Origin: a virus
Direction: 5' to 3' (one strand)
IMG/VR virus record: IMGVR_UViG_3300031957_000883
Coordinates: 1 to 24,545 of that record
Length of the DNA stretch: 24,545 nucleotides
In this document: positions 1 to 18,800 of the stretch, in pieces
Layout of the letters: each line of letters starts with the position of its first letter
How positions within the stretch are numbered: the first letter of the stretch is position 1
Position numbers and translations under genes: made by a program
Notes under the pieces: model-generated
The model's database searches: none
The model's input: only the letters and a program-made list of their open reading frames with translations
What the model was told of the DNA's origin: nothing

Positions 1-73
1 GTAACTTTGGAAGAGGTTCACCGAACTTTCTATCCCAAACATTTTCTTTAATTAGTTTTTTTAACTTAATCAT
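1..73 (-). CDS. Head/internal protein with leader motif (5' part only)
   Basis: This is the beginning of a minus-strand gene that runs off the left edge, so only 24 codons are visible. They read MIKLKKLIKE followed by NVWDRKFGEPLPKL. This is almost the same leader as in the next two head genes upstream (starts at 438 and 1290). The start ATG overlaps the stop of the preceding gene by one base (TAATG), and no strong ribosome binding site is seen, so translation is probably coupled. The L-I-K-E tetrapeptide fits the gp21-type cleavage motif (hydrophobic, any residue, Glu). By position after the scaffold genes it could be another internal protein or the major capsid protein. The visible part cannot decide this. 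Confidence 0.75.
   Translation of the reverse strand, partial: MIKLKKLIKENVWDRKFGEPLPKL
1..73 (-). repeat. Leader repeat copy 3
   Basis: Third copy of the leader coding sequence shared with 367-438 and 1213-1290. The stretch encoding VWDRKFGEPLP is almost identical in the three genes at DNA level. Confidence 0.85.
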
Positions 74-438
74 TATTTCATTTTTTTAACGTATGAAACA
101 ACATCTTTCATAAATGTAGTTACGTGTTTTTTATACGATGCTTTTATATCTTTTGCTATTTTCATATTTTCTGGTCGTGGGTCAGATAAGAAAATTTGTT
201 CTAACTTCATCATCCTTTCACGAAGTTTTGCTTCAGCTTTCATAATTCTCTGTAATTCTTTTTTAGATTTTCTAACGTCATCTGGACCTTCAGTTACCAC
301 TGCTTCTTTAACTCCACAACAAGTACCACCACAATCACAATCATTATGTTTTTCTATTACTGATGATAATGTAGGTAACGGTTCACCGAACTTTCTATCC
401 CAAACGTTTTCACTAAGTATATTTTTTAATTTTATCAT
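73..438 (-). CDS. Small internal head protein with targeting-type leader
   Basis: This gene encodes a basic protein of 121 residues. Residues 1-24 are the shared leader: MIKLKNILSE, then NVWDRKFGEPLPTL. A cysteine-rich patch (CDCGGTCCGVK) follows at about 35-45, and the rest is Lys/Glu-rich and probably helical. Two adjacent ATGs exist (441 and 438). I chose 438 because AAGGA sits about 6 nt before it but only 3 nt before the first, and because it makes the leader match the neighbours. I-L-S-E just before Asn11 fits a gp21 prohead-protease site. From this I infer a protein packaged in the prohead core, with the leader removed on maturation. No named family is recognised. The CxC and CC cysteines could bind metal or form disulfides. 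Confidence 0.8.
   Translation of the reverse strand: MIKLKNILSENVWDRKFGEPLPTLSSVIEKHNDCDCGGTCCGVKEAVVTEGPDDVRKSKKELQRIMKAEAKLRERMMKLEQIFLSDPRPENMKIAKDIKASYKKHVTTFMKDVVSYVKKMK
367..438 (-). repeat. Leader repeat copy 2
   Basis: Encodes MIKLKNILSE, then NVWDRKFGEPLPTL. Closest at DNA level to the copy at 1-73: the block ttcaccgaactttctatccc is the same in both. Confidence 0.85.
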
Positions 439-465
439 CATTTTCCTTTTTAAAGTAATTAAACT

Positions 466-1290
466 TTATTTTTTACTGATTCTTTCAAACATTTCTCTTA
501 GAGAATGTTTATCTGTAATTTTTTTTTCTTCTTTAACTTTTTTATATTTTTTACCATTAATTTCTACTGAATCTCTTATTCCTATTCCACCACGTGTACT
601 TCTACCACTCATACCAGTCGTTGGCATTTGAGGTTTTAGTAATTGTAGAATTTTATTTTGATTTTTGACTGCAGTACTCCGCATATCCTGAGATTCTTTT
701 TCCCAATCTGTGTCGCCTTGACTGTCAGCATCTTCTATATCATATTCCATCTTTTGTTTATGAGCTTGTAAATCCATAAATTTTTGTTTAAGAGTTGTTT
801 TATCCATATCTTCTAAACCATCTAAATTAGGAGACTCAAACGAATCATCTTCGGGGTCATAATCATCTGAACCTAAATATGTTCTATCGTCATCATTAGA
901 AAATGGTTCGTCATCAAAGTTAGCTAATTCTTTTCTTGACATTTTAGATACTTTTTCTTTACTATCTGGTTCTTCATCACCTTTTGGTTCACTATCATCA
1001 GAATCTCTTTCAAAATCATCAGGTTCAAGACCTTTACCTTTTGGTTCTTCTTCTCCACCTTTATCTGCCAGGTTATCCCATGCTTGTTTTGCTGGATGGT
1101 CTTTATCCATTTTCTTAGCTGCACCAGCAGTCATTTCTTGAGACTCACCATCTTTATCTTTATATTTTAAAATCGTATCATCATCTACTTCAGCTTCTTT
1201 CATTACATCCTCTAAAGTAGGAAGTGGTTCACCAAATTTTCTATCCCATACATATCCTTCTGATAATATTTTTTTTAATTTAATAATCAC
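466..1290 (-). CDS. Acidic scaffold / prohead core protein (T4 gp22 position)
   Basis: A 274-residue, very acidic, low-complexity protein. Residues 1-26 are the shared leader (MIIKLKKILSE, then GYVWDRKFGEPLPTL). Residues 35-160 are rich in Asp, Glu, Lys and Ser, and the C-terminal part is helical and charged. In T4 the scaffold gp22 lies just downstream of the gp21 protease and is destroyed by it. Here the gene lies one small gene downstream of the protease, is acidic like a scaffold, and has an L-S-E|G site at residues 9-12. The start is GTG at 1290: it overlaps the upstream stop (GTGA) and has AAGGA 9 nt before it. A phrase near residue 40-70 (KYKDKDGESQEM, then KDHPAKQAW) is one I associate with related marine phages. 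The scaffold role is inferred. Confidence 0.8.
   Translation of the reverse strand: MIIKLKKILSEGYVWDRKFGEPLPTLEDVMKEAEVDDDTILKYKDKDGESQEMTAGAAKKMDKDHPAKQAWDNLADKGGEEEPKGKGLEPDDFERDSDDSEPKGDEEPDSKEKVSKMSRKELANFDDEPFSNDDDRTYLGSDDYDPEDDSFESPNLDGLEDMDKTTLKQKFMDLQAHKQKMEYDIEDADSQGDTDWEKESQDMRSTAVKNQNKILQLLKPQMPTTGMSGRSTRGGIGIRDSVEINGKKYKKVKEEKKITDKHSLREMFERISKK
1213..1290 (-). repeat. Leader repeat copy 1
   Basis: Encodes MIIKLKKILSE, then GYVWDRKFGEPLPTL. This copy is more diverged at DNA level than the other two but keeps the protein, which suggests selection on the peptide. Confidence 0.85.
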
Positions 1291-1595
1291 GTGTTTTTCC
1301 TTTTAAATTGCTTAAATTTTACATCCATCTCAGTCACATATTTTTTATAGAACGATTGTAATTCTTTTACTTGTTTTTTGTAATCAGCATCACCATCTTT
1401 TGTATCTTGAGCTAAATCTTTAATTAAAGTCTTTAGACTACGACCCACACTTGCCATATGTCCTTCGATAGTTTTAAAGTAATTGTCAAATCCAGCAAAT
1501 CCCATTTTGATTTTATCTTCTGAAATTTTTAGAGATGTATCTTCGTCAAGTCTCCAATCTTTCCATTTTTCCATCATATTTTTATAATTAGCCAT
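1287..1595 (-). CDS. Small helical head-region protein, unknown function
   Basis: Encodes about 102 residues, Lys-rich and predicted helical, between the prohead protease and the scaffold-type gene. Two ATGs stand in tandem directly after the protease stop (TAATGATG). The second, at 1595, has the better spacing from the GAGGGG ribosome binding site; the first is at 1598. The C-terminus (FYKKYVTEMDVKFKQF) resembles the end of the 121-residue protein encoded at 73-438 (SYKKHVTTFMKDVVSYV), so the two may be distant relatives. The protein lacks the shared leader. A prohead core component, as for the small T4 core proteins gp67/gp68, is possible but unproven. Confidence 0.75.
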   Translation of the reverse strand: MANYKNMMEKWKDWRLDEDTSLKISEDKIKMGFAGFDNYFKTIEGHMASVGRSLKTLIKDLAQDTKDGDADYKKQVKELQSFYKKYVTEMDVKFKQFKRKNT

Positions 1596-1597
1596 CA

Positions 1598-2221
1598 TTA
1601 ACCCCTCATAATATCATTGATGATTGATTCTACCTTACAATAATCACCACAAGTTCTACCCATTGTTACCTTTTTATCTACAGATTCATTTACACCAGCT
1701 GGATGCATGAACGCTCCGTGTGTAGATGGATTGGAAACAAAATCAAATGCTATAAGTTCAAAATCTGGTTGAACTTGTGTTACTTCGTCACCATTAGATT
1801 CACTAACAGTTTCTACTGAACCCATACCTCTTGAAGAGATACCTAACTTAATTCCTGCTTTAAATAATTCTTTTAATATATTACCACTTGGTGTACCTAA
1901 TACTTCAACTTCACCTAAAAGGTTATCACCTTCCCAATGCATATCTTTAATATTATGAGATACGTTTTGTAAATTAACTACTGAACTCTCTGGATGGTCA
2001 AGTTCTCCCATAGCTCTTCGTTCTGATATAAATTCTTTTGTGTACTTTTTAGCTTCACGTTGTAAAATCTCACGAGGATAAACTCTACCATTTTGATTCT
2101 TAGCTTCAGCACGTTGTAATATACCACGAACAATTAACTTACCATTGTTTTCTTTCATTGATTCGTTAATCTGTTCTGGTTTTATTTCAAATGGTAAGTA
2201 ATCTACTATTAAGTTCTTCAC
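1598..2221 (-). CDS. gp21: Prohead core protease (T4 gp21-like)
   Basis: This 207-residue serine protease should cleave scaffold and capsid proteins inside the prohead after Glu in (L/I)-x-E motifs, as T4 gp21 does (212 residues, so the length matches). Visible family features are GELDHPE with the probable catalytic His76, LGISSRGMGS with the probable nucleophile Ser129 or Ser130, and a following strand (FELIAFDFVSNPS, 154-166). The start is GTG: a strong GGAG lies 6 nt upstream, and no better ATG is present. Candidate self-cleavage sites exist at I-N-E|S (18-21) and V-N-E|S (177-180). An odd C-terminal pair, Cys191 and Cys195, lies in a short tail. The gene sits in the expected order portal - core proteins - protease - scaffold. 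Confidence 0.93.
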   Translation of the reverse strand: MKNLIVDYLPFEIKPEQINESMKENNGKLIVRGILQRAEAKNQNGRVYPREILQREAKKYTKEFISERRAMGELDHPESSVVNLQNVSHNIKDMHWEGDNLLGEVEVLGTPSGNILKELFKAGIKLGISSRGMGSVETVSESNGDEVTQVQPDFELIAFDFVSNPSTHGAFMHPAGVNESVDKKVTMGRTCGDYCKVESIINDIMRG

Positions 2222-2431: not shown

Positions 2432-3130
2432 TTAGTAAAGTTGACCGACTTTATTTGCTAGTTTTACTAACCTTTCACTAATTTTTTTCATAGCTCCGTG
2501 AGTGTTTTTCCAATAGGTTTTAGAATCAACACCTATTTCGTTTTTCAATCTCACATTCATTTTAACAAGTTTATCCAACTCGTTTAATTTATCTCGAACT
2601 TCTCTCATCGAGTAACCAATTTTTTGTTTTGCAGATAAAGATTCATCATTTCTGTAATTATGGTAATGACCTTCAGATACAGATTCTTTTTTTCTTTTTT
2701 CTTCTGGTTCATCTCCAATAGTTGTTTTTTTCCCAGCAGGATGAAATGGTATATGAGCTTCAAGTTTCTTATCAATCTGTTTTGCTTTACCAGCTTGAAC
2801 TCTGGTTACACTTGTAATAGCTTTAACACCACCCTTTAGTTTTTTAGCGACTATCATTTTAGCTTCACCTTTACCACTAGCGTCAACTATAACACTACCT
2901 AAATCTCCCACCTTTACGTGAAATTTTGCTTCTTTAACTTTCATATATCCACCAGCTGTAGCTATTCTTTTTTCTTTTTCTTTATCTTTTTTACGTTTAC
3001 CACTAAAAGCATATGGTGTTTTTGGAGGCCCTGCACCACCGTCAAGATTACCGGTTACAGATACTTCTTCTAATTCTTTTTTAATTAATTCTCTTACTAA
3101 GGCTTCTAATTTTTTAAGAGGTGTGGACAT
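2432..3130 (-). CDS. Conserved head-region protein, unknown function
   Basis: A 232-residue Lys-rich protein. A helical N-terminus (1-22) runs into the phrase VSVTGNLDGGAGPPKTPYAF (23-42), a motif I associate with T4-like phages from the sea. A β-rich middle section follows (about 68-115), then a Lys-rich linker and a helical C-terminus (155-232). L-E-E|V (20-23) and V-S-E|G (151-154) fit the gp21 cleavage motif and would release the N-terminal helix and separate the two halves. AGGAGA precedes the ATG, which lies 17 nt inside the end of the upstream gene. By position (portal to protease) it lies where T4 has gp67/gp68. A prohead core role is inferred from that and from the candidate sites. 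Confidence 0.82.
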   Translation of the reverse strand: MSTPLKKLEALVRELIKKELEEVSVTGNLDGGAGPPKTPYAFSGKRKKDKEKEKRIATAGGYMKVKEAKFHVKVGDLGSVIVDASGKGEAKMIVAKKLKGGVKAITSVTRVQAGKAKQIDKKLEAHIPFHPAGKKTTIGDEPEEKRKKESVSEGHYHNYRNDESLSAKQKIGYSMREVRDKLNELDKLVKMNVRLKNEIGVDSKTYWKNTHGAMKKISERLVKLANKVGQLY

Positions 3131-4044: not shown

Positions 4045-5886
4045 TTAGTCATTTGATTTATCTTTGGTTAAAGAAGTTACCTCATTTTTGTATACTTCTT
4101 CAACTTCAGATGCCTCATTAATAATTTTTGCGTCAGTATTACCAAATTTCATTGATTTTTTTAGTTTGTCATAGTGTGATAGAGCTAATGGTTTACCATA
4201 CTTAGGAGAACCACTTCCACCTTTTTTCATATCGTGAGCTCCAAGTGGGTCTCTCCCTCTTGCACCACTATCTTTTCCATATTTATTTGCTTCTTTAGGA
4301 CGACCTGCACCTTCAAATCCACCTTCTGGTGCTCCACCTTTGTCATCTAATTCGTGACCTGTTCTACCCATAGCCATATCTGATGGCGTTCCTTGAGATT
4401 CTCCACTTTTAGCTGGGTCATTACCCTCAGATTCTATCTGTTGTCGTCTAAATTTATTTTTATAATCAAAAACAATACCATCATCTTCTTTTTGAATTTG
4501 TTCTTCTGTAAATCCAAATATATTTTTATAAATCCACTCTGAAGATACTAAACCATCTTGTAACATTGAAGATGCTAATTGTGTTTTATTATTCCATAAC
4601 TCAATTTTTTCTTGTTCATATATTGTAGATGGATTAGTTAATCCTAATTCAAAATCAACTAAATCTGCGTCTGTATATCCTTGTGCATACAAATGAACAA
4701 TTGCAATTTTAGTTAATTCACTAACTACAATTCTTTGTATTCTTTCTATAGTTCTTGCAAATCTAACATCTTCTGCTGCTAATGTTGCCTTTGAACCAAT
4801 TTGGTCTTCAAAACCTAAAAACGCTTTAGGTATTCTAAGAGCTGATAGTAATTTATTTTTTAAATACTCAATATCCTCTGTCGCTTCATAGGTTAAACCA
4901 GGCATTGACTCAATACTTGTTCCACTATCACCACCTCTAACTGGTAAGAAAAAATCTTCCGTTATATTTTGCATATTATATTTTAAGTTATAATCACCTG
5001 TGGTCTCATCAACAACTGGTGCTTTTTTCATTTTGTTAATAACTTGTTGCATATAATTGTCAACTTCATTTGGTGGAATGTTACCAATATCTAATTTAAA
5101 TACTCTTTTTTCTGGTGCTCTCATAATACGATGTATTAACATAGCGTCTTCCATAAGAGTTAATTGTTTATAAATCTTACGGCCACCTTCAACTTGTGAT
5201 TTACCATACGGTAAATAATTAGAATCAGACAATAATCTAAAGTGAGCAACTTCATAATTTTCTAACTCTTCTCTTGTAGCAGATTTTTCTGATTTATATC
5301 TATGTTCACTTGTTGTTGATTCAACTAAAAATTTTACATACTCTGGATTTTCAGGGTCTAAACCTTCTAATCTTGAAACGTCATATACAGACATGGGTAC
5401 AACATTTGTAATACCATATTTTTCATTAATTTCTAATTTTAAAAAGAAATCACCATACTTACACATATTACGAATCCAAGGCCATAGATTAAATTCAATA
5501 TTTAATATATCATAGAATAAATTATGTAATATTTGTTTTATCTGTTCGTTATCAGATTTAATTAGTAATACTTCACCATATTCTGATTTCATAGTAGACT
5601 CATCTGAATATATGTCAAGTGCAGAAGAAATTATAGCATCACTATCCATTGCTTCATAATCTTTAAAAAGATTTAATCTTAATGATTTTGTTAATAGTGA
5701 ATCTGAATATCCACTTAGGCCTGCACCCGTAAATATTTTTTGATATCTATCAACTAGATTGTTTTTTGATATTGATTGCGTACGACTTGTATCGGCAACT
5801 TTTAATCGTTTACCACCTACATTTCTTACTATTACGTTGGTAGAGAATAATCTTTGTAATCTACCAAATAGACTTGTGTCAGCCAT
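4045..5886 (-). CDS. gp20: Portal vertex protein (T4 gp20-like)
   Basis: This is the dodecameric portal, through which DNA enters the head and to which the tail attaches. It directly follows the large terminase gene. The 613 residues exceed the 524 of T4 gp20. Residues 1-480 hold the portal fold, with recognisable stretches such as DSDAIISSALDIYSDE (81-96), PYGKSQVEGGRKIYK (226-240), the MEDAMLIHRIMRAPEKR helix (245-261) and LRIPKAFLGFED (350-361). The excess is a Gly/Lys/Asp-rich, probably disordered tail (485-613) ending in a short helical segment. The tail contains I-N-E|A (589-592), which fits the gp21 cleavage motif. GAGGT lies 6 nt before the ATG. The upstream stop is 8 nt from the start. 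Confidence 0.95.
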   Translation of the reverse strand: MADTSLFGRLQRLFSTNVIVRNVGGKRLKVADTSRTQSISKNNLVDRYQKIFTGAGLSGYSDSLLTKSLRLNLFKDYEAMDSDAIISSALDIYSDESTMKSEYGEVLLIKSDNEQIKQILHNLFYDILNIEFNLWPWIRNMCKYGDFFLKLEINEKYGITNVVPMSVYDVSRLEGLDPENPEYVKFLVESTTSEHRYKSEKSATREELENYEVAHFRLLSDSNYLPYGKSQVEGGRKIYKQLTLMEDAMLIHRIMRAPEKRVFKLDIGNIPPNEVDNYMQQVINKMKKAPVVDETTGDYNLKYNMQNITEDFFLPVRGGDSGTSIESMPGLTYEATEDIEYLKNKLLSALRIPKAFLGFEDQIGSKATLAAEDVRFARTIERIQRIVVSELTKIAIVHLYAQGYTDADLVDFELGLTNPSTIYEQEKIELWNNKTQLASSMLQDGLVSSEWIYKNIFGFTEEQIQKEDDGIVFDYKNKFRRQQIESEGNDPAKSGESQGTPSDMAMGRTGHELDDKGGAPEGGFEGAGRPKEANKYGKDSGARGRDPLGAHDMKKGGSGSPKYGKPLALSHYDKLKKSMKFGNTDAKIINEASEVEEVYKNEVTSLTKDKSND

Positions 5887-5894
5887 TTTTTACC

Positions 5895-7478
5895 TCACTT
5901 AATTAACCAAGTTAAATCTTCTTGTTTTTTATTTACTTCCATAGTCCAAGAATCATTTTGGTTATTTGTTGGTGTATAAACACCTTGATTAGATGTTATA
6001 CTACTCATTGCTTTTTTTTGTAATTCTACGCCTTCAGCTCTTAATCTGAGAGCCGTTTCTCGTATCCATAATCCCATAGCGTAAGACATTACTAGGTCAT
6101 CATTGTACCCACTCATAGCTTCTGCCCTACTACCATTATATATAAATACAAACAGTTCATCTATTAATCTTTGTGAATGAACCGTCACTAATTTTTCTCT
6201 AAAAAATTCTTCTAACTTAGACACAACTAATGGTCTTGTCTTAGAAGTTATTGTAAATCCTGGTATAAGTTGTTTTTCAGTTCTATTAATTTTATTATTA
6301 ATTTGTTTGTGAACATCTACCACTTGTAAATCTTTACTCATATAAAATAGGTTTTCATATTCCCTATCAATCACCTGTTGGATTGTAGCCCAACCAATGT
6401 TGTTGTTCTCAATAACAAGTAATGCATTATTATATTCGGTTGCCATATTAACTAAAAGATTACCATAATCTCTAGTAGACATCCTACCTTTATATTCAGC
6501 TACTTGTTCTAAACTTTCTACATCTAAAATATGAAATGCAGAATAGTCTGTTGAATCACCTCTACTAACGTCAGCACATACCACATAGTCTTTTGTATAA
6601 TTTGGTGGCTCCCATATCCAAACATTTGAATCAATACCACGTTTCTCCATTGGTTCTTTAACTTGTGTAGTTCTATATTCTTCTAAAATAATACCATCTA
6701 CTACACTTTGACCAGAGGTTATAAAGTCACAATCACATTCTTGAGCCGCTAACGAAGGCCCTAATAGAGCGTCTTGTTCATCTCTCCATTCTTGTTCTCT
6801 ATCTGGATGAACCGTCCAATGAAGTCTAATAAAATTAAAATCATTTAAGTGGTCTTCAGCATCCATCCAAGTTTTATGAAACCAATTACCAACACCATTT
6901 GGTGTGGAAAGTGCAATACATTGACCACCTGTTGATAAGGTCTGTGATGCTGCAGCCCATATACTATCAATTCTATCAATAAACGCCGCTTCATCAAGTA
7001 TCAATAAAGACAAAGCTTCTGAACGACCAGCATCCTCACCACTTGATACAGCTTTTATTTGAGAACCATTTTTGTATCTCAAACTTAATTTGTTATCTTC
7101 AACACATTTTTGTTTTAACCAACTCGGTAAGTTTGCGTGCATAACACGAACCTTTGTTACCAAGTTTTTTGCTACTTCTTGTTTAGTAGCAATTACTAAG
7201 ATATTTTTATCTTGATGAAATGTCATCATCCATAAAGAATATCCAGCAGTTAAGGTACTAATACCTAACTGACGAGCTTTTAAGATAATATTAAATCTAC
7301 TCTGTACAAAATCCTCAACCGTTTTTTCTTGAAAGGGATAAAGATGAAATGGTATTTTTCCCTTTATTGGATGTTGTATCAAACAGTATTTTTTTAAAAA
7401 ATATACTGGGTCAGCAGCACATTTTACATACTCTTGTTTAATTACGTCTTTAAGTTGTCCTTGTGTATTGCGTTTCAT
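5895..7478 (-). CDS. gp17: Terminase large subunit (T4 gp17-like)
   Basis: This is the ATP-driven DNA packaging motor and headful nuclease. The 527 residues have the two expected domains. In the ATPase, a Walker A-like KARQLGIST occupies residues 67-75, Walker B LLILDE 158-163 with catalytic Glu163, and the coupling motif STPNG 191-195. In the RNase H-like nuclease, acidic residues are in VVCADVSRGD (Asp303), LLVIENNN (Glu357) and YNDDLVMSYAMG (Asp460/461). Length is somewhat short of T4 gp17 (610). The start overlaps nothing but follows the upstream stop by 1 nt, without a clear ribosome binding site, so coupling is likely. No small-terminase gene is recognisable by sequence; see the gene at 8077-8598. 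Confidence 0.97.
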   Translation of the reverse strand: MKRNTQGQLKDVIKQEYVKCAADPVYFLKKYCLIQHPIKGKIPFHLYPFQEKTVEDFVQSRFNIILKARQLGISTLTAGYSLWMMTFHQDKNILVIATKQEVAKNLVTKVRVMHANLPSWLKQKCVEDNKLSLRYKNGSQIKAVSSGEDAGRSEALSLLILDEAAFIDRIDSIWAAASQTLSTGGQCIALSTPNGVGNWFHKTWMDAEDHLNDFNFIRLHWTVHPDREQEWRDEQDALLGPSLAAQECDCDFITSGQSVVDGIILEEYRTTQVKEPMEKRGIDSNVWIWEPPNYTKDYVVCADVSRGDSTDYSAFHILDVESLEQVAEYKGRMSTRDYGNLLVNMATEYNNALLVIENNNIGWATIQQVIDREYENLFYMSKDLQVVDVHKQINNKINRTEKQLIPGFTITSKTRPLVVSKLEEFFREKLVTVHSQRLIDELFVFIYNGSRAEAMSGYNDDLVMSYAMGLWIRETALRLRAEGVELQKKAMSSITSNQGVYTPTNNQNDSWTMEVNKKQEDLTWLIK

Positions 7479-8606: not shown

Positions 8607-9827
8607 CTAAAAATTTAATAAACCTAATATTTGATTGACTGGAGCAAAAGCACCAGTAAACTTATATGTTTTACCTTTGTACTTAAATACAATTCCTTCT
8701 GATGGAACTATTGAAGATAAACCACCAATTTTTTCTAATTTATCTAATTGTAACTTTAATGTTTGTATTTTTTTTATGTCACCACCACTTTTAACAGTTT
8801 TAATTGCGTTAATCACGTCTTTTCTTATTTTTTGCACTGCTTTTTTTGGTGACGCAACTAAGTAACCACTAATATTTTTTAATATCTCAGCACCAACATC
8901 AAAGAATAAAACCTCAAATGGTTTCATATTTTGTTTTACCCATTTTTGATGGTCGTTTTTATCAAATGATAAAACCCAATCAAGAAACTTCTCATTATCT
9001 ATATCTTTTCGTATCGTTGGAATCTTATATGATTTATCAAAGAACGCCCATCTCTTAGTTAAGTTAACTAAAACACGATTTGGTATTTTATATTTATATT
9101 GTTTAGATGCATTAAAGATAAACTCTTCCCAAAATGATTGGTGATATTTAGCTAACGTATCATTGTCTTTTAATTTATATTGATTTTGTAATTTTTTTAG
9201 TCTACCTAAATATGTTTTTTTCTTTTTTCCAAAATCTTGTACTTTTGGTATTTGTAAAAAATTTGGTTTACCAATTGAATATTTTTTTTGTACGTTTTGA
9301 TTAACTTGTTTAATCATACCAGCTAATATGCGAGCTGAATCTTTAGGTTGTCCAATAGCTCTACCACTTTCATCATATTCTAATGTTCCGTGAAATATAA
9401 TTTCAGTTTTGTCATAATCAATCACATTAGCTGAAGCTGGATATATAACCTCAAGGTTCATCCACCGTTTTCCGTTACCAAAAACTTTTTCTTTTTGTTT
9501 ATCCGACAAAGAACTTACTGCTTTACTCAAATCTTTCATAGCAAAAACAAACGCGTTTTTTATATCACCTCTACCTGCAAACTTAGAAGCAACACTTGCT
9601 GTGTCCATTGCCGTTGCTCCAAAGTTTTTTAGTTGTCCTTTGTTTCGTGCCGTAACTAATTTACCGTTTACCCAACTAATCATTAGGTTTTGTCCGTCAA
9701 GTTTTTCAGTAACACCATCTTCTCTATTTAAATTCCCACCTAGCCCATTAATAATTATCTGTTTTAAATCTGAAAATGTAATGTTTTTGTCGTCAAACGG
9801 ATGATTCATATGTCCGTATGCTCCACC
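8607..9827 (-). other. Module: ligase-like nucleotidyltransferase (residues 1296-1701)
   Basis: Covalent nucleotidyltransferase motifs are present in order: motif I EKLDG with Lys1337 as the likely AMP-binding residue, ARNKGQ (1355-1360), WMNLEVIYP with Glu1421, then SEGIVFKYKG (motif IV, Glu1672) and lysines 1677-1684 (motif V). About 190 residues of helical, Lys-rich sequence separate the middle and late motifs, more than in T4 RNA ligase. Cyanophage proteins starting GGAxGHMxHPF, which I recall as an unnamed family (perhaps DUF6267), look alike. Confidence 0.65.
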
Positions 9828-12800
9828 TTCTAATAATAAGTGTTCTTTAATCTCTTTTTTTTGTTTTTTTGATTGTGAGTTTATTGCACTTCCGTGAGTA
9901 GCACCTGGAACCACTAAGACTTTTTTACCTTGTTTTTTATAATCTTCCATCTTCTCAGCCATATTATCTCGTCTCAACTGATTCCAAGCTAACTGAGCTT
10001 CACCTAATGTGGTTGAACCAGCTTTACCTGTATCTTCAGGAAAACTTTGATTGAATAGTTGTTTTACTTCTTCACCACTTGGTGGAAACTTACCTTTATA
10101 CCCATTATCTTTTAGATATTGCTTACCTTCATCTGTTAGATACGTAGCTTCTTTAGGGTTATCACCTTGTCCTACTAAAAATGCATACATAGCACCTGTC
10201 ATTTGTGATGGTGTAGCATTCATCTTTTTGGCTAAGTCCTTATAGATTGGTGCATCTTGATTAGTGTGTTCGTTGTATTTACCATCCCAAGTATCAACAC
10301 TACCACCTGCTTTTTCAACCATCTTACCAATAAGTTCTTGTTCTGTACCCTCGTGGTAATTGTGTCCATCACCTTGTCCACCCTCTCCTAAAAACACTAC
10401 GTTTTCTGCTCCGTGCTTTTTTATAAAATCTTGAACCATTGGAACTACTTGTTTCTTTACAAACTCACCAGCCTTTGGGTCATCATCACTCATATGAGGT
10501 GTTCCAATAACCATACTATTTTCATCTTCGGTTACGTATTGAGCTTTGTGAACTTTTGGTTCGTAACCAACTTCTTCATCACCTAAGTATAGATTACCGT
10601 GTGGGTCTTTACCAAAACTTTTGATTTTATCCATTCTTTTTTTAGAAGAATCACTATTTTTTTTAGAATCTCTTGGTTCTTTACCAGATGGATTGGCTAG
10701 TTCTATTGCCTTTGGACTGTTTGGATGATTACTTAAATATTGTTGTTGTGCTTTAGCCGACATATCAGTCCACCAATCTTCTGTAATAAGTTTTACATAA
10801 TCATCTAAATTAATTCGTTCTTTTAAATCTAACTTATCTAATTCAGTATTTCCCACATTATCTTTACCGATACCAGGTAGTACTGGAGTTTCTACTTCTA
10901 CACCTGTATAATTTTTACCATCGGGCGTTATACCCATCCATTTTATTATTGTATACCCTAAATTTTTTAAAATAACATTTTCTATTTGATTTTTATAAGA
11001 GTCAATGGGACTATTAACTCCAAATCTAGTACCATAATCACCAGATTGTTTTCTACCATATGCTACTGCAGGCACTGTATTATATTTAAGAGTATAATCA
11101 TAATCAGGGTTTATAGCGTGTTTTCCTAAAATGTATTGTAGTACTTCCCAACCAGCTCCAGCATACATATCATCTATCCATTTTTTAGAGAATTTTTTAT
11201 AATCACTAAATCCTTTATAAAATGTTGGTGGGCCGTCATCTGTTGGTGATGTTACTGTTGAACTACTTTCTTTTAAAAGTTTACTTATATCATTTTTAAT
11301 TAAAAACTCATCTATAGATTCAAATAATTTTTTAAATTTATTAGTCATCATATTATAGATACCTTTATCAAAGTATCCAAAAGATGTTTTAAATAACTTT
11401 TCTCTATTTTTTTCATAGTCAGGTGAACCAAGTAATTGTCTCATTACTGTGCCACTAACTTCTTTACCACCTACACTAACAGAAACGTGAGGTGCTGTAA
11501 GAACGTATCCATTATCTTCATAACCATTGATATTATTTTTGTTTTTCTTATAATCTTGAAAGTATTTACCACCTGATAATCTACCAGCATCTTTTTTACC
11601 AAAAATATAAATTACCGCGGTGGTATCTTTGTCATATTTCTTTAATACGTTTTTAGCTACATAAGGTGACTTCTCTTCTATGATACGATTTTTTGGTACA
11701 CCCATCTTTGTCATATGACGAACTTTTTCTTTAAAGTTCATTGGATGTCTTGGTGGTTGTTTTATATTAGATGTAGTGATGTAAGCGTCATCTACTCTTT
11801 TCTTTAACCACTCATAAGTTTTTTTATGATGTGGGCCAAATGGTTGAAATCTACCACCATATACACCAACTATTTTTTTAATTTCTTTTTGTTCTTTTAG
11901 TTTTTTACCCGTATCTGTTTTAAGAAAAGGGCCTCTTCTAAGTGTTTGAAATCTTACAGGTACTTCTTGACCAAATAAATTTTTAGGTGATAAGATTCTT
12001 AGTGTAACCATTTTTTTAGGATTATCAACTTTAACAGTTTCAAATTCTATCTCTTTATACTTTCTACCCTTATGTGTAAGATTCTTACCAGTTATAAACT
12101 TCTCTACTTTATTACCTCTGACTGCAAAAGCTTCATTAACTTTTTTATAACCACTACCATAGGGAACTGAAGTGTGACCTTTTTTCTTCATCTTAGCAAC
12201 ACCTTTACGACTTGGTGATGGAATGGTAGTTTCATTCTTCTTCTTAGTTTTCTTTTTCATTTTATTGATGAAAGCTCTATATACTGCCGCTTGAGATGCT
12301 TTACCCATCTCTTTTGCTCGTTGTTCCATAGCAACAGCAGCTTGTATTTTGTGAGCATGAGACTTACCACTACCTTTTATTTTACTTACAGAAGCTTTAG
12401 CATCTTTTACCGTAGCAAACTTCAATCCTTTTATTGTACCTTTTGGATTCTCATCTGTGTATAAATCTGAATGGGATTTAGAACCTCTGTGTTGTCCTTT
12501 TTTTCTTGGAACTCTTGGTGCTTCTTCTACAGGTTCATAACCTTTTTTCTTTTTATTTGGTTTTTCATTTTGATTACCACCTATTTCTTTATCATCATCA
12601 TCAAAATCATATGTATCTGGTTCTGACCAATTACCCATACTATCAGCACTCATAGAATATTTATGATGTTGTGAAAAATCTTTACCTGCATCTGTTTCAG
12701 GTTTATTTTTTAATTTTTTAAACTTATCTTTTATTTTAGTTGGTAGTGATTCTGAAAGTCCTTTTCTTTTTAGTATTTGTTGTTTTTTAATCCAACGTTT

Positions 12801-13712
12801 AGCTAGTTTATTTTTTATAGGTAACTTTACAAATTTACTCACACCCTTTCTAACTAAGGATGCAAATTTCTTTTGAGCTTGTTTTGGTTTTAAAAATTTA
12901 GAATTATCAACAATTAAAAAGTTTTGTTTAAAAAGATTTTGAAACTTACCTAAATTTGATTGAACATCTTTCCAACTTTTTTCTAATAAATCTGGTGGTA
13001 ATATTCTATCTCGTTCTTGGTTTCTCTGTTGTGCAACTTCTAAAGTTGTGTTAACAAATACCATATAGGTGTCATAACCATCTTCTTGTAATTCTCTTTT
13101 CATTTTAGCAAGTTTACCAAAGTCGTGACCAGTGCCATCTATAATCATACCTAACTTACCAGCCTGATATTGTTTCATTCTTTGTTTTGTAAGTTCTTTA
13201 CTATATGTTCTTAACCCACTATAATCTTTATCTTTTGGATTTGTAAGTTGACTAAATAACTCATCAGGCATCTTATCTAAATCTGTACCGAATCCAAACT
13301 TATTTAAAAGAAACTTTAACTCTTTATCCGAGTTTACCATCTTTAAACCACTCATACTAATATTGAATCTTTCAGGTATTCCAAATAGTTGTTTAGCTAC
13401 ATAAGTCTTACCACTACCTGGCCCACCAGCTAAAAAAACTGCTTTAAATATGCCAGGATCGTTTACACCCTCTGTAACATCTGGTCTTTTTTTACTATTG
13501 ATTATTTTTGTGTCGTCTTTTTTAGGGATTCTGAATGTAGTTGCTTTTCTACCATTGATAGTTGGCATACCGTGTTGGTCTTTACCAATATCTTTGACAA
13601 TCATTTTCTTGTTTTTGAATTTACCAACAAGAATAGTATCACCAACCTTTACTGGTAGTTTGATATCCTCTTCTAAAAAAGGTTTAGTTAACCATTTGGT
13701 TAATTTGTTCAT
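8607..13712 (-). CDS. Giant 1701-residue multi-enzyme protein, possible polyprotein
   Basis: One uninterrupted reading frame joins several recognisable modules. Residues 20-62 are a small motif (VGDTILVGKFKNKK). Residues 90-290 are a P-loop kinase, and 425-490 a basic helical segment (HAHKIQAAVAMEQRAKEMGK). Residues 612-765 form a nicotinamide-mononucleotide-adenylyltransferase-like domain, and 828-945 an unassigned domain. Residues 1065-1280 are TraB/ChaN-like, and 1297-1701 a ligase-like nucleotidyltransferase. Between modules lie charged low-complexity linkers and motifs fitting gp21 cleavage: LEE|D (13-16), VTE|G (79-82), LSE|S (319-322), VNE|A (525-528), LKE|S (813-816), ITE|D (976-979) and LLE|G (1293-1296). 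The ATG overlaps the lysozyme stop (TAATG). In other T4-like marine phages I recall such modules as separate genes. Packaging with proteolytic release is inferred, not shown. Confidence 0.9.
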   Translation of the reverse strand: MNKLTKWLTKPFLEEDIKLPVKVGDTILVGKFKNKKMIVKDIGKDQHGMPTINGRKATTFRIPKKDDTKIINSKKRPDVTEGVNDPGIFKAVFLAGGPGSGKTYVAKQLFGIPERFNISMSGLKMVNSDKELKFLLNKFGFGTDLDKMPDELFSQLTNPKDKDYSGLRTYSKELTKQRMKQYQAGKLGMIIDGTGHDFGKLAKMKRELQEDGYDTYMVFVNTTLEVAQQRNQERDRILPPDLLEKSWKDVQSNLGKFQNLFKQNFLIVDNSKFLKPKQAQKKFASLVRKGVSKFVKLPIKNKLAKRWIKKQQILKRKGLSESLPTKIKDKFKKLKNKPETDAGKDFSQHHKYSMSADSMGNWSEPDTYDFDDDDKEIGGNQNEKPNKKKKGYEPVEEAPRVPRKKGQHRGSKSHSDLYTDENPKGTIKGLKFATVKDAKASVSKIKGSGKSHAHKIQAAVAMEQRAKEMGKASQAAVYRAFINKMKKKTKKKNETTIPSPSRKGVAKMKKKGHTSVPYGSGYKKVNEAFAVRGNKVEKFITGKNLTHKGRKYKEIEFETVKVDNPKKMVTLRILSPKNLFGQEVPVRFQTLRRGPFLKTDTGKKLKEQKEIKKIVGVYGGRFQPFGPHHKKTYEWLKKRVDDAYITTSNIKQPPRHPMNFKEKVRHMTKMGVPKNRIIEEKSPYVAKNVLKKYDKDTTAVIYIFGKKDAGRLSGGKYFQDYKKNKNNINGYEDNGYVLTAPHVSVSVGGKEVSGTVMRQLLGSPDYEKNREKLFKTSFGYFDKGIYNMMTNKFKKLFESIDEFLIKNDISKLLKESSSTVTSPTDDGPPTFYKGFSDYKKFSKKWIDDMYAGAGWEVLQYILGKHAINPDYDYTLKYNTVPAVAYGRKQSGDYGTRFGVNSPIDSYKNQIENVILKNLGYTIIKWMGITPDGKNYTGVEVETPVLPGIGKDNVGNTELDKLDLKERINLDDYVKLITEDWWTDMSAKAQQQYLSNHPNSPKAIELANPSGKEPRDSKKNSDSSKKRMDKIKSFGKDPHGNLYLGDEEVGYEPKVHKAQYVTEDENSMVIGTPHMSDDDPKAGEFVKKQVVPMVQDFIKKHGAENVVFLGEGGQGDGHNYHEGTEQELIGKMVEKAGGSVDTWDGKYNEHTNQDAPIYKDLAKKMNATPSQMTGAMYAFLVGQGDNPKEATYLTDEGKQYLKDNGYKGKFPPSGEEVKQLFNQSFPEDTGKAGSTTLGEAQLAWNQLRRDNMAEKMEDYKKQGKKVLVVPGATHGSAINSQSKKQKKEIKEHLLLEGGAYGHMNHPFDDKNITFSDLKQIIINGLGGNLNREDGVTEKLDGQNLMISWVNGKLVTARNKGQLKNFGATAMDTASVASKFAGRGDIKNAFVFAMKDLSKAVSSLSDKQKEKVFGNGKRWMNLEVIYPASANVIDYDKTEIIFHGTLEYDESGRAIGQPKDSARILAGMIKQVNQNVQKKYSIGKPNFLQIPKVQDFGKKKKTYLGRLKKLQNQYKLKDNDTLAKYHQSFWEEFIFNASKQYKYKIPNRVLVNLTKRWAFFDKSYKIPTIRKDIDNEKFLDWVLSFDKNDHQKWVKQNMKPFEVLFFDVGAEILKNISGYLVASPKKAVQKIRKDVINAIKTVKSGGDIKKIQTLKLQLDKLEKIGGLSSIVPSEGIVFKYKGKTYKFTGAFAPVNQILGLLNF
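9828..10778 (-). other. Module: TraB/ChaN-like domain (residues 979-1295)
   Basis: The order VVFLGEGG (1106-1112), LRRDNMAEKM (1246-1255) and VVPGATHG (1267-1274) matches the pattern of the TraB/ChaN/erythromycin-esterase superfamily: a Gly-Glu, an Arg-x-x-Met helix and a late Gly-x-x-His. These are metal- or haem-linked hydrolase-type folds. Only motif likeness supports this. It is preceded by ITE|DWWTDMSAKAQQQYL, a phrase found at starts of phage virion proteins as I recall. Confidence 0.45.
11268..12131 (-). other. Module: NMNAT/cytidylyltransferase-like (residues 528-815)
   Basis: VGVYGGRFQPFGPHH (615-629) is the first motif of the HxGH nucleotidyltransferase superfamily (Gly-x-Phe-x-Pro and a His pair). 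VSGTVMRQLL (752-761) matches the closing ISSTxxR-type motif. The best known relatives join AMP to nicotinamide mononucleotide (NadM/NadR). The superfamily also makes CDP and ADP sugars and lipids, so the substrate is open. A small β-domain (528-605) precedes it. Confidence 0.7.
12750..13469 (-). other. Module: P-loop kinase (residues 82-321)
   Basis: Walker A is GGPGSGKT at residues 96-103, preceded by the strand FKAVFLA. A second strand with MIIDGTGHD (189-197) could supply the Asp of Walker B. The Arg-rich QQRNQERDR (228-236) resembles the lid of polynucleotide or nucleoside kinases. The substrate cannot be told from the sequence. The module is framed by VTE|G and LSE|S. Confidence 0.7.
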
Positions 13713-15323: not shown

Positions 15324-15410
15324 TTAAATTAAAATTGTAATTGCAGTTCCAGCGTTACCACTTCCCCCAGCTGTTACACCATCTGCTCCACCAGACGCTC
15401 CTACTGCTCA
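15324..15410 (-). other. In-frame continuation of the glycine-rich gene beyond TGA
   Basis: After the TGA the frame reads AVGASGGADGVTAGGSGNAG and then TAITILI before TAA. The composition is that of the preceding gene, and the end is a typical hydrophobic strand closing such domains. One base change (GGA to TGA) would create the stop. Nonsense mutation, sequencing error and programmed readthrough all fit. Confidence 0.7.
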
Positions 15411-15809
15411 ACCAGCACCACCTGTTAAGTTCATCGTAAATGGATTCGTTATAGTTGTCGTACATAATACAATCACTCCACCATTTCCACCAGCTCCACC
15501 ACCACCTTTTCCACCAGCACTATCTTCATTCCCAGTTCCACCAGCACCACCAGCTACACTATTATTACTTGCAATACAATTAGAAACAGCGACTCCAGCT
15601 GTTCCAGCTACACCAGCTCCAGTATTATCACCACCGCCTCCACCTCCACCAGGAGCTCCAGCACACACCTTTAATGGTATTGCAGTGGTGGCTGAATCCA
15701 TTACATCACGCATCATCATAACGATGTGTGGGTCTATACTTCCTAATTTTGTTACAGCGGTTGATGTTGCTCCTGTACCACCAGTTCCACCCGATGCTCC
15801 TCTAGGCAT
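15408..15809 (-). CDS. Glycine-rich adhesin-type protein (up to in-frame TGA)
   Basis: Encodes 133 residues, dominated by Gly, Ala, Thr and Ser. Runs such as GASGGTGGTGATST, AGAPGGGGGGGDNTG and GGKGGGGAGGNGG are separated by less regular segments. This layout recalls the glycine-rich motifs of T4-type tail-fibre adhesins (T2 gp38 and relatives), which stack as polyglycine-II helices and bind host receptors. GGNGGVIVLCTTTITN, then NLTGGAG, resembles the end of the 1794-residue upstream protein (GGSGGIVFIYARVLQE, then STGGTGGQGG). AGGAGA lies before the ATG. The frame stops at TGA (15408-15410), but the same frame goes on with equally glycine-rich sequence to TAA at 15324. Receptor binding is inferred. 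Confidence 0.75.
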   Translation of the reverse strand: MPRGASGGTGGTGATSTAVTKLGSIDPHIVMMMRDVMDSATTAIPLKVCAGAPGGGGGGGDNTGAGVAGTAGVAVSNCIASNNSVAGGAGGTGNEDSAGGKGGGGAGGNGGVIVLCTTTITNPFTMNLTGGAG

Positions 15810-15833
15810 ATCTATTCTCCTATGTTATATTTG

Positions 15834-18800
15834 TTAAACTTCAGCACTACTACCACCTTGACCACCAGTTCCGCCTGTAGAGGTAATTGTTCCTGTTCCA
15901 GTTTCTTGTAATACTCTTGCATAAATAAAGACGATTCCACCTGAACCACCTCCTCCGCCTCCGCCTCCTCCGCGAAAGGTATCTCCTGAACCACCAGCTC
16001 CACCCCTTGAACCAGCTGTTCCAGCCTGTAAACTTCCACCTGGCCCACCAGAACCACCATTTCCACCACTTGCACCACCAGTTGAACCACCTGAACCATT
16101 ATTTCTAATTGTTGCAGCATTAAGGTGTAATGTATCTTTTACGAAAACCCTATAACCATTTGTAGTTAAAAAACAACTCGTTACTGTTAAATCTTTGTAA
16201 TACATATCTCTAGTAAGACTTGTGTTTGATGTTATAGCAACAACTCCATCTGAACCATCACCAAATAATTTTGATTTTTCAAGAATACTACCACTAACAA
16301 TAATTTCAGCTCCTGATATAGATATAATATCAGTAGTATCATTTCTTAAAGCTATACCACTATCAGTTATATTAACATTTTTATTACCACTTCCTGTTCG
16401 ACCAACCAATACTCCATTACTTGACATTGTAACTCTGTCGTTACCACCTTCTGTAAGAGTGATACCACCTGAACTTATTGCAATTTTATCATCGTTACTA
16501 TTATTACCACGAAGTGTAATGGTTGTTCCAAATTCAGCAGCTGCTGTCGAAGCATTACCTGCGTGTACATCTATTCCACTAGCGTGTACTTTAACAAAAT
16601 CTGTTGAGTTCTGATAAATAAATACTCCTGTGCCTGGTTGTATTCTAACTACATCATCAGTAGATGTATTACTAACATCTGTACTAGCAGCACCACCAAA
16701 TGACGCAATACCTGAGGCGTTAATATTAACTCTTTTTATTGGTGTATCTGCACCATCATACATATCAATATTGGCATCAGAGATTTCTGTTCTTGCTTGT
16801 CCACTTCTTCCTATTCTTATGTTAGTTCCATAATCTGCAATACTTGTTCCATTTACATCTTGTAAATCCATACCCTCATTATCTATCACCACTCTTGCAG
16901 CGACTCTTACACCTGGAGTTGCGTAAGCTGCAGCTGATGATGATATTGCAGAACCTGATGCTGTAGAACCTTGTGCTCGCAGATTAGATTTTGTATCAGC
17001 TAAGGATGCAGATGCAGTTGCTCCAGCTGCTCTATTTGAAGCTTTTGTATCAGCTAAAGATGCCGATGCAGTTGCTCCAGCACCCCTTGCTACACTTCTC
17101 GCCTCTTTGTCATTTGACGAACCACTAATTTGATCTCTTAAAGCGGCAGTCATTGTTATAGAACCTTCTAAAGCTAAATTACTTCCATCCCAAGAAAATT
17201 TATTACCTAAAGAAAAATTACTAGCACTATCTATATAAAATGGTGTATTAGAATTTGCGTGAGTTCCAGCTCCATTAAATAACTTATTATTTTCCATCTT
17301 AATGCCACCAATAGAACCACTACTAGCTTTTATCTGTCCTGATAGGAATACGTTTTCAGCTGCTAAACCAAAACCTGGAGTTCTTGTTATCCCAACTGAA
17401 TCACCTAATGCAGAATCTGGAAGTCCACTTAAATCTCCTATACGAGTTCTAAGCCTATAATCGTAAATATCACTACCAGTTCTTTCTTTAAAATCTATAT
17501 AAGGTGTTGCTCCATAATTAGGATTTGCATTCATTTCTATCCAACCACTACCCGTGGTGTTATTTTTTGTACCACCCATAAATTTACCAGTAGATACAAG
17601 TGTTTGTCCAGGATTATATTCAACAGCTGGTGATACCAATCCACCTAAAATAGAAGCTTCAAAAGACAACTGATTTACATCAGCATCCACTGCGTGTGAA
17701 GTTTGAGGTGTACCATCAACACCTCTTAATACGTGTATTATGTTATTACTTGTAGACCCAGTAATTTTCATTATTTCCGTATCAACCATTATCAATCTAC
17801 CATTAAGAGCAAATCCAGTATTTGAATCTACAGCTATATCTGTTTGTGTAGCATTTGGTTGTGTTCTTATTTCTGTTATTTTTGTTCTTGAACCAGACAC
17901 AGTTGTAGCATTACCAAGACTACGAGTTACCACAAGAAAACCTGATTGGTCATTATCAGATGCTAAATCCTTTCTACTTGAAGTATGTACTCTCATAAAC
18001 TCTTTTGTAAATCCAGTAGCATTTACTTTTTTAGCAAATAATATTTCACCTCTTTCAAAAGCACTTACATTATCACAATGTATAATAGAAGATGTTGCTG
18101 GTACTGAAGCACTAACCGTTGTAGCATTAGCTACCCATAGTTGACCACCAACCACATTGACTTGTTCTTTTTCAAAAACAGTTGTTGCGAGTGTACCACG
18201 AATATTCACATTTTCAAATTCAGCAAAACCATTTCCTAATGATGATATAATCCAACCAGTTGTACGAGGGTCATAATCCTTTGACCTTATTGTACCTCTA
18301 TCTTCAAGTATTAAATTACTACTACTAATTGTACTATTACCTATTGTAAATCCACCAATTTGACCACCTGTAAATAATACTTGTGAACCAGTTATATCAC
18401 CACTTGATGATAATATTAGATTATTATTAGAAGACCTTATTTTACTTGGTGATACTTGGAATCCACCAATGGATGCAGAAACAAATCTTGCAAGTCCATC
18501 AGCTTTTATTGAAGATGATGCATTAAAAACATTAGATGCAGCACCACCTATATTTGCAGGTGTTAAAATTTGATTAGCAGCAACTGTTCCCAAAACTTGA
18601 ACATCTGATGTTATAACACCACTTTCCATTAAAAAATTTGATGCAGTTATATTACCTTGTCTTGTTAAGTGAAGATTGCTTGCACTTATTTCTATATTAC
18701 CATTTGAACCACTTACAAATGAAGACGACTGATTACCAAAGAAAAACCTTGAAGTTTTTACATCAAAAGATGAACTATAATTATTGTCTGCATCTATGGT

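Follow-up and report, generated by a model that had tools for sequence, protein, structure and literature searches.

A leader and WDRK module shared by the N-termini of unrelated head-region proteins in marine T4-like viruses: a probable capsid-targeting propeptide

In phage T4, gp21 cuts its substrates behind L/I-x-E, and in the 10-residue leader of the internal protein IPIII, residues 4 and 7 serve targeting and residues 8 and 10 serve processing; D at position 10 allows targeting and blocks cutting (PMC9026906). T4 gp24 also loses its first 10 residues (PMC9958956). In SPN3US, gp53 and gp54 carry long propeptides with extra cut sites (PMC5694885), and the N-terminal 30-residue signal of P1 DarB suffices to package a reporter (PMC9024508).

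The window, that is, the whole stretch of DNA analysed here, is a phage record of 24,545 bases whose minus strand encodes a T4-like head module. The order of genes is terminase, portal, three small genes, gp21-type protease and then the leader genes A, B and a third gene, with the following features.

5895..7478, minus strand: large terminase, a landmark
4045..5886, minus strand: portal protein (gp20 homologue), a landmark that adjoins the terminase
2432..3130, minus strand: conserved head-module protein, start MSTPLKKLEALVRELIKKELEE, with hydrophobic-x-E ahead of a conserved SVTGN core
1598..2221, minus strand: prohead protease, gp21 homologue (Peptidase_S77), with its own N-terminal I-N-E site
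1287..1598, minus strand: neighbour gene with a different leader type, MANYKNMMEKWKDWRLDE
466..1290, minus strand: gene A, an acidic 274-residue protein with leader and WDRK module; GTG start at 1290
1258..1290, minus strand: gene A leader MIIKLKKILSE, ending in L-S-E
1213..1248, minus strand: gene A module WDRKFGEPLPTL
73..438, minus strand: gene B, 121 residues, with leader, WDRK module, Cys-rich spacer and helical hairpin
409..438, minus strand: gene B leader MIKLKNILSE, ending in L-S-E; helix predicted at residues 4-11 with low confidence
367..402, minus strand: gene B module WDRKFGEPLPTL
289..297, minus strand: second putative protease site of gene B, V-T-E (E50), directly ahead of the confident helical hairpin
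1..73, minus strand: third gene, start only (contig end), ATG at 73; MIKLKKLIKE-NV-WDRKFGEPLPKL

The first-pass annotation of this DNA had reported that three neighbouring genes share MI(I)KLKxxLxE followed by WDRKFGEPLP, and that the rest of genes A and B differ. All three N-termini were confirmed at 1290, 438 and 73, gene A beginning with MIIKLKKILSE-GYV-WDRKFGEPLPTL and gene B with MIKLKNILSE-NV-WDRKFGEPLPTL, and no similarity between A and B was found when they were compared without the cassette. The ATG at 438 was taken as the start of gene B, the ATG at 441 being a possible alternative. Neither gene had a match in Pfam, in PHROG or among 50,697 phage records. The counterpart of the third gene in a close relative (L091:7113-7664, contig G002) encodes 183-184 residues and represents a third family (F), whose predicted model, with a pLDDT of 32, was too poor to be of use. 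The window protease matches PF03420 in the Pfam comparison (E 2.5e-30), and this gp21 homologue at 1598..2221 is likely the processing enzyme of the leaders.

Several other features of the window were observed. Between module and core, gene B has a Cys-rich spacer, CDCGGTCC (window 316-339), which is present in many members of family B, also in those without the module, and which could bind metal. A 1701-residue protein with AAA_33 kinase and cytidylyltransferase (NadR-like) domains is encoded at 8607-13712, and its counterparts among the relatives differ in length and splitting. Glycine-rich ORFs at 15408-16120 adjoin the glycine-rich end of a large structural gene (15834-21218) and look as if they were a duplicated or broken part of it.

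The first-pass annotation had proposed a search of related phages for the leader and motif, together with a check for their clustering in the head region. When IMG/VR was searched with a 23-base degenerate DNA pattern for WDRKFGEP, 65 stretches were found, giving 77 distinct proteins with the module just behind an N-terminal leader, which indicates that the leader-module pair in the window is not due to chance. These 77 proteins, which all come from relatives of this phage, represent many unrelated families; beyond the module there is no detectable similarity from one family to another, with the reservation that the acidic 'gene A' clusters may overcount real families. Relatives of gene A were found in 13 loci by a separate search. 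The leader has either a short form, MIKLKxxLxE, or a long form, MKILxSYKKIAKxMLxE, and the same module is found behind either of them. In a sample of contigs picked by terminase, not by the motif, and having at least 3 kb after gp21, 9 of 12 contained the module. All copies except two or three directly follow an N-terminal leader; internal copies were seen at L012:4836-4858 and in the L009 gene at 8079, and one of these is close to the C-terminal end of a protein related to gene A.

Comparison of leader plus module with isolated phages gave chance-level weak hits only (E 4 or more). Microcystis phage Mel-JY01 and Flavobacterium phage immuto lack the module in their head regions but keep the cut site in MCP and gp21. 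The exact 29-base pattern had no match in GTDB, searched with one genome for each of 84,980 species, and thus no host mimic or isolate was found. The string RKFGEPL was not found in the literature searched. The WDRK module is real and had no precedent in the collections of isolates, genomes and papers that were searched, and the group that carries it is one of abundant uncultured marine T4-like viruses.

The end of the leader is [LIMV]-x-E in 77 of the 77 module proteins. Its P3 residue is L in 53, I in 11, M in 10 and V in 3 cases, that is, L/I in 64/77 and M/V, outside the L/I-x-E of T4, in 13/77, indicating that the marine site is slightly wider than that of T4. Inspection of 73 short leaders showed L at position 4 (73/73), L/I/M at 7 (73/73), L/I/M/V at 8 and E/D at 10, in a set whose filter itself required residues 7, 8 and 10. 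In a control scan of short leaders position 10 was left unconstrained, and there E was found in 61/61 module-bearing leaders, and the leaders without the module comprised 28 with E and 3 with D, with 6 lookalikes carrying other residues. The T4 targeting rule (residues 4, 7, 8 and 10) would thereby be extended beyond the close relatives of T4.

The three D10 leaders, MIKLTELLKD (L121:14209), MIKLKELIQD (L122:8005) and MIKLKNLIKD (L002:3673), are all from family B, and none is followed by the WDRK module. From T4 genetics, targeting without cutting is predicted for them, and they constitute a natural test of the T4 rule. Since D10 blocks cutting in T4, these leaders speak against the reading as a cleaved propeptide, and they would fit a leader that is a permanent structural helix, bound to scaffold or shell and never cut. 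We consider such a helix improbable, because E10 is otherwise invariant and hydrophobic-x-E is kept even where the entire leader has been replaced.

Further evidence for a cut site comes from other N-termini of the head module. The site survives unrelated N-terminal extensions in family D and in the fam9 orthologue of phage Mel-JY01 (VREVIAE-N), whose unrelated N-terminus ends in V-I-A-E, and the MCP of the locus carries the site in alignment with the end of the T4 gp23 propeptide. Within residues 2-45 of head-module families, [LIM]xE was more frequent than the reversed Ex[LIM] (1.33 versus 0.76; 46 families versus 13), and no such excess was found in families outside the head module (0.33 versus 0.47), which supports a cut site in head-module N-termini.

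The same end signal is also found on neighbouring head genes with other leaders, of the types MSKKSxYKKLMxE and MxNYxxMMxxWKDWRLxE. The latter was found at 32 distinct N-termini in 8 families, and the site follows at once in 17/32; the window gene at 1287-1598, beside gp21, has a leader of this type. The expectation of the first-pass annotation that the leader can be used to find all capsid cargo is therefore only partly true: since these interchangeable types exist, a search with MIKLKxxLxE alone would miss the genes that bear them.

The clustering proposed with the search was found. Across 13 loci that contain portal as well as MCP, a leader was present on 37/156 genes between the two and on 0/99 outside (p 3.7e-9, which is only a guide because the loci are related and not independent). 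In 15 contigs that were read over all or almost all of their length, two kinds of exception lie outside the interval. NUDIX-like genes far from the head module (L081:10065-11264 and contig G002:32055-32927) start with MIKLKQIIES or MIKLKHILES, which are leader-like but lack E10. The second is a family E gene bearing both leader and module, found by pattern in L065 (contig G001) and L069 (contig G009). It is separated from gene B by about 13 kb and is not within the portal-MCP interval, although other contigs have this family next to gene B.

Recent recombinational copying of the 5' ends of genes, or an AT-rich bias at gene starts, could in principle give similar N-termini with no targeting role, and cassettes do swap: gene 3 of L012 has the long leader of gene 1, and contig L028 carries a pair of identical 30-nt copies. 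Over the 30 nt that encode RKFGEPLPTL, however, 5 of about 7 synonymous sites differ between the two complete window copies under identical peptides (the path method adds 1 non-synonymous step for this pair although the peptides are identical), indicating that the window pair did not arise by a recent duplication at the DNA level. Most copies elsewhere have also drifted far apart at synonymous sites, genes beyond the head module lack leaders, and the reversed-pattern control was negative, so that copying or bias is very improbable as the explanation.

From the 10-residue register, the [LIMV]-x-E end, the clustering between portal and MCP and the presence of a gp21-type protease, we infer a capsid-targeting-like propeptide, which agrees with the reading of the leader as the T4 equivalent in the first-pass annotation. 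All the sequence tests made on the leader agree with such a role. The leader is probably a targeting propeptide of the T4 kind, cut by the gp21-type protease, and the WDRK module would be an optional second element, more likely cut away than retained.

The fate of the module is the less certain part. The first-pass annotation took WDRKFGEPLPTL as a retained docking motif: after a cut at E10 it would stay as the new N-terminus and dock the protein to, for example, the inner shell, DNA or portal. In accordance with that, the module comes after the leader site, and in 56/77 proteins two residues separate this site from the W; the two clear internal copies also come after hydrophobic-x-E (VKE-YAW in L012 and ITE-NKN in L009). 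In addition, paralogues within a contig are strongly conserved in the module, with pS of 0.50 and pN of 0.056, the latter being pushed down by the motif-based sampling.

Three observations stand against retention. First, a second conserved [LIVF]-x-E is located between module and core in families B, C and D, even under unrelated extensions; just ahead of the core, hydrophobic-x-E is found in 31/31 members of family B, 9/9 of C and 7/8 of D. In family B, E50 is invariant, with V/I/F at P3, in 31/31 orthologues, and in family C the core KKELGG comes after LNE, LTE or ISE whether the module is present or absent. Second, families B, C and D also include proteins that keep the leader and lack the module, and others that have an unrelated N-terminal extension. 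Third, the predicted model of family B has a confident helical hairpin at residues 52-118, right behind E50, and both the tail and the module region are of low confidence, so that a fold boundary at the second site is seen in this one family. When the hairpin was compared by Foldseek with viral models, none matched below E 0.001.

The second site is missing in the module-bearing copies of family A, which have VMKEAE or VMKESE ahead of the core, and family E has none between module and core. Over all motif proteins, sites behind the module showed a modest excess (1.12 versus 0.95 in reversed and 0.78 in shuffled sequences; nonredundant set, first 9 residues skipped). In the gp21 tree only 3 loci with at least 3.5 kb after gp21 were counted as module-less, which is too few to time gain or loss. 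Because the second hydrophobic-x-E lies between module and core in several families, the module is perhaps part of a two-step propeptide. Judging from these sequences, we rank this as more likely than the retained docking motif, which is not established and to which we give a distinctly smaller chance.

WDRKFGEPLP might instead extend the recognition site downstream of the cut, for the protease or its core partner to read, and not be a separate address. The module lies 1-4 residues behind E in nearly all copies, and E10 accompanies the module in every short-leader copy of the control scan, the three D10 leaders all being without it. Nevertheless, the 28 E10 leaders without the module show that it is not needed for keeping the site, and we regard this role as rather unlikely, below retained docking. 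The module is an undescribed element, acting as an assembly peptide or as a retained address.

For the preferred reading, the targeted and cleaved propeptide, we infer the following order of events. The leader would form an amphipathic 10-residue helix that the prohead core or scaffold recognises, and would bring unrelated small proteins into the prohead; the gp21-type protease of the phage would then cut behind hydrophobic-x-E. WDRKFGEPLP(T/K)L would be an additional, optional part of this N-terminal region, acting during assembly, through core binding or cut-site presentation, and then cut away, which is more likely than its staying on the mature protein. On this basis a testable sequence rule can be given for which unknown small genes of this marine phage group ride in the head and hence may reach the host. 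A more speculative proposal, which we hold with considerable doubt, is that WDRKFGEPLP(T/K)L represents a second, portable head-sorting signal, different from all those described, and that in combination with the interchangeable cleavable leaders it turns the region between portal and MCP into a plug-in site for many unrelated head-borne, possibly injected proteins.

Among the known systems, the likeness to P1 DarB is that of an N-terminal packaging signal, with no claim of sequence relation. The closest known likeness of the marine leader is the N-terminus of T4 gp24, MAKINELLRE, which likewise has 10 residues, hydrophobic at 4, 7 and 8 and with E at 10, and which is removed by gp21 in head maturation. 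Unlike gp24, where the leader is on one shell protein, the marine pattern is on many unrelated small proteins, often with the extra module. In this reuse on unrelated mature proteins, as well as in length and in targeting and processing positions, it resembles the leader of T4 IPII and IPIII (MKTYQEFIAE), although only the letters M1 and E10 are identical and the likeness is one of pattern. In T4 the genes for internal proteins are located apart from genes 20-23, whereas the marine leader genes are inside that interval, and no WDRK module was seen in the T4 proteins examined. The inner-body proteins of SPN3US and phiKZ share with the marine proteins the occurrence of diverged paralogues with identical N-termini, but they belong to another phage group and have A-x-E or S/A-x-E cut motifs and propeptides of more than 100 residues. 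Since the SPN3US propeptides have more than one cut, they provide a precedent for a two-step propeptide.
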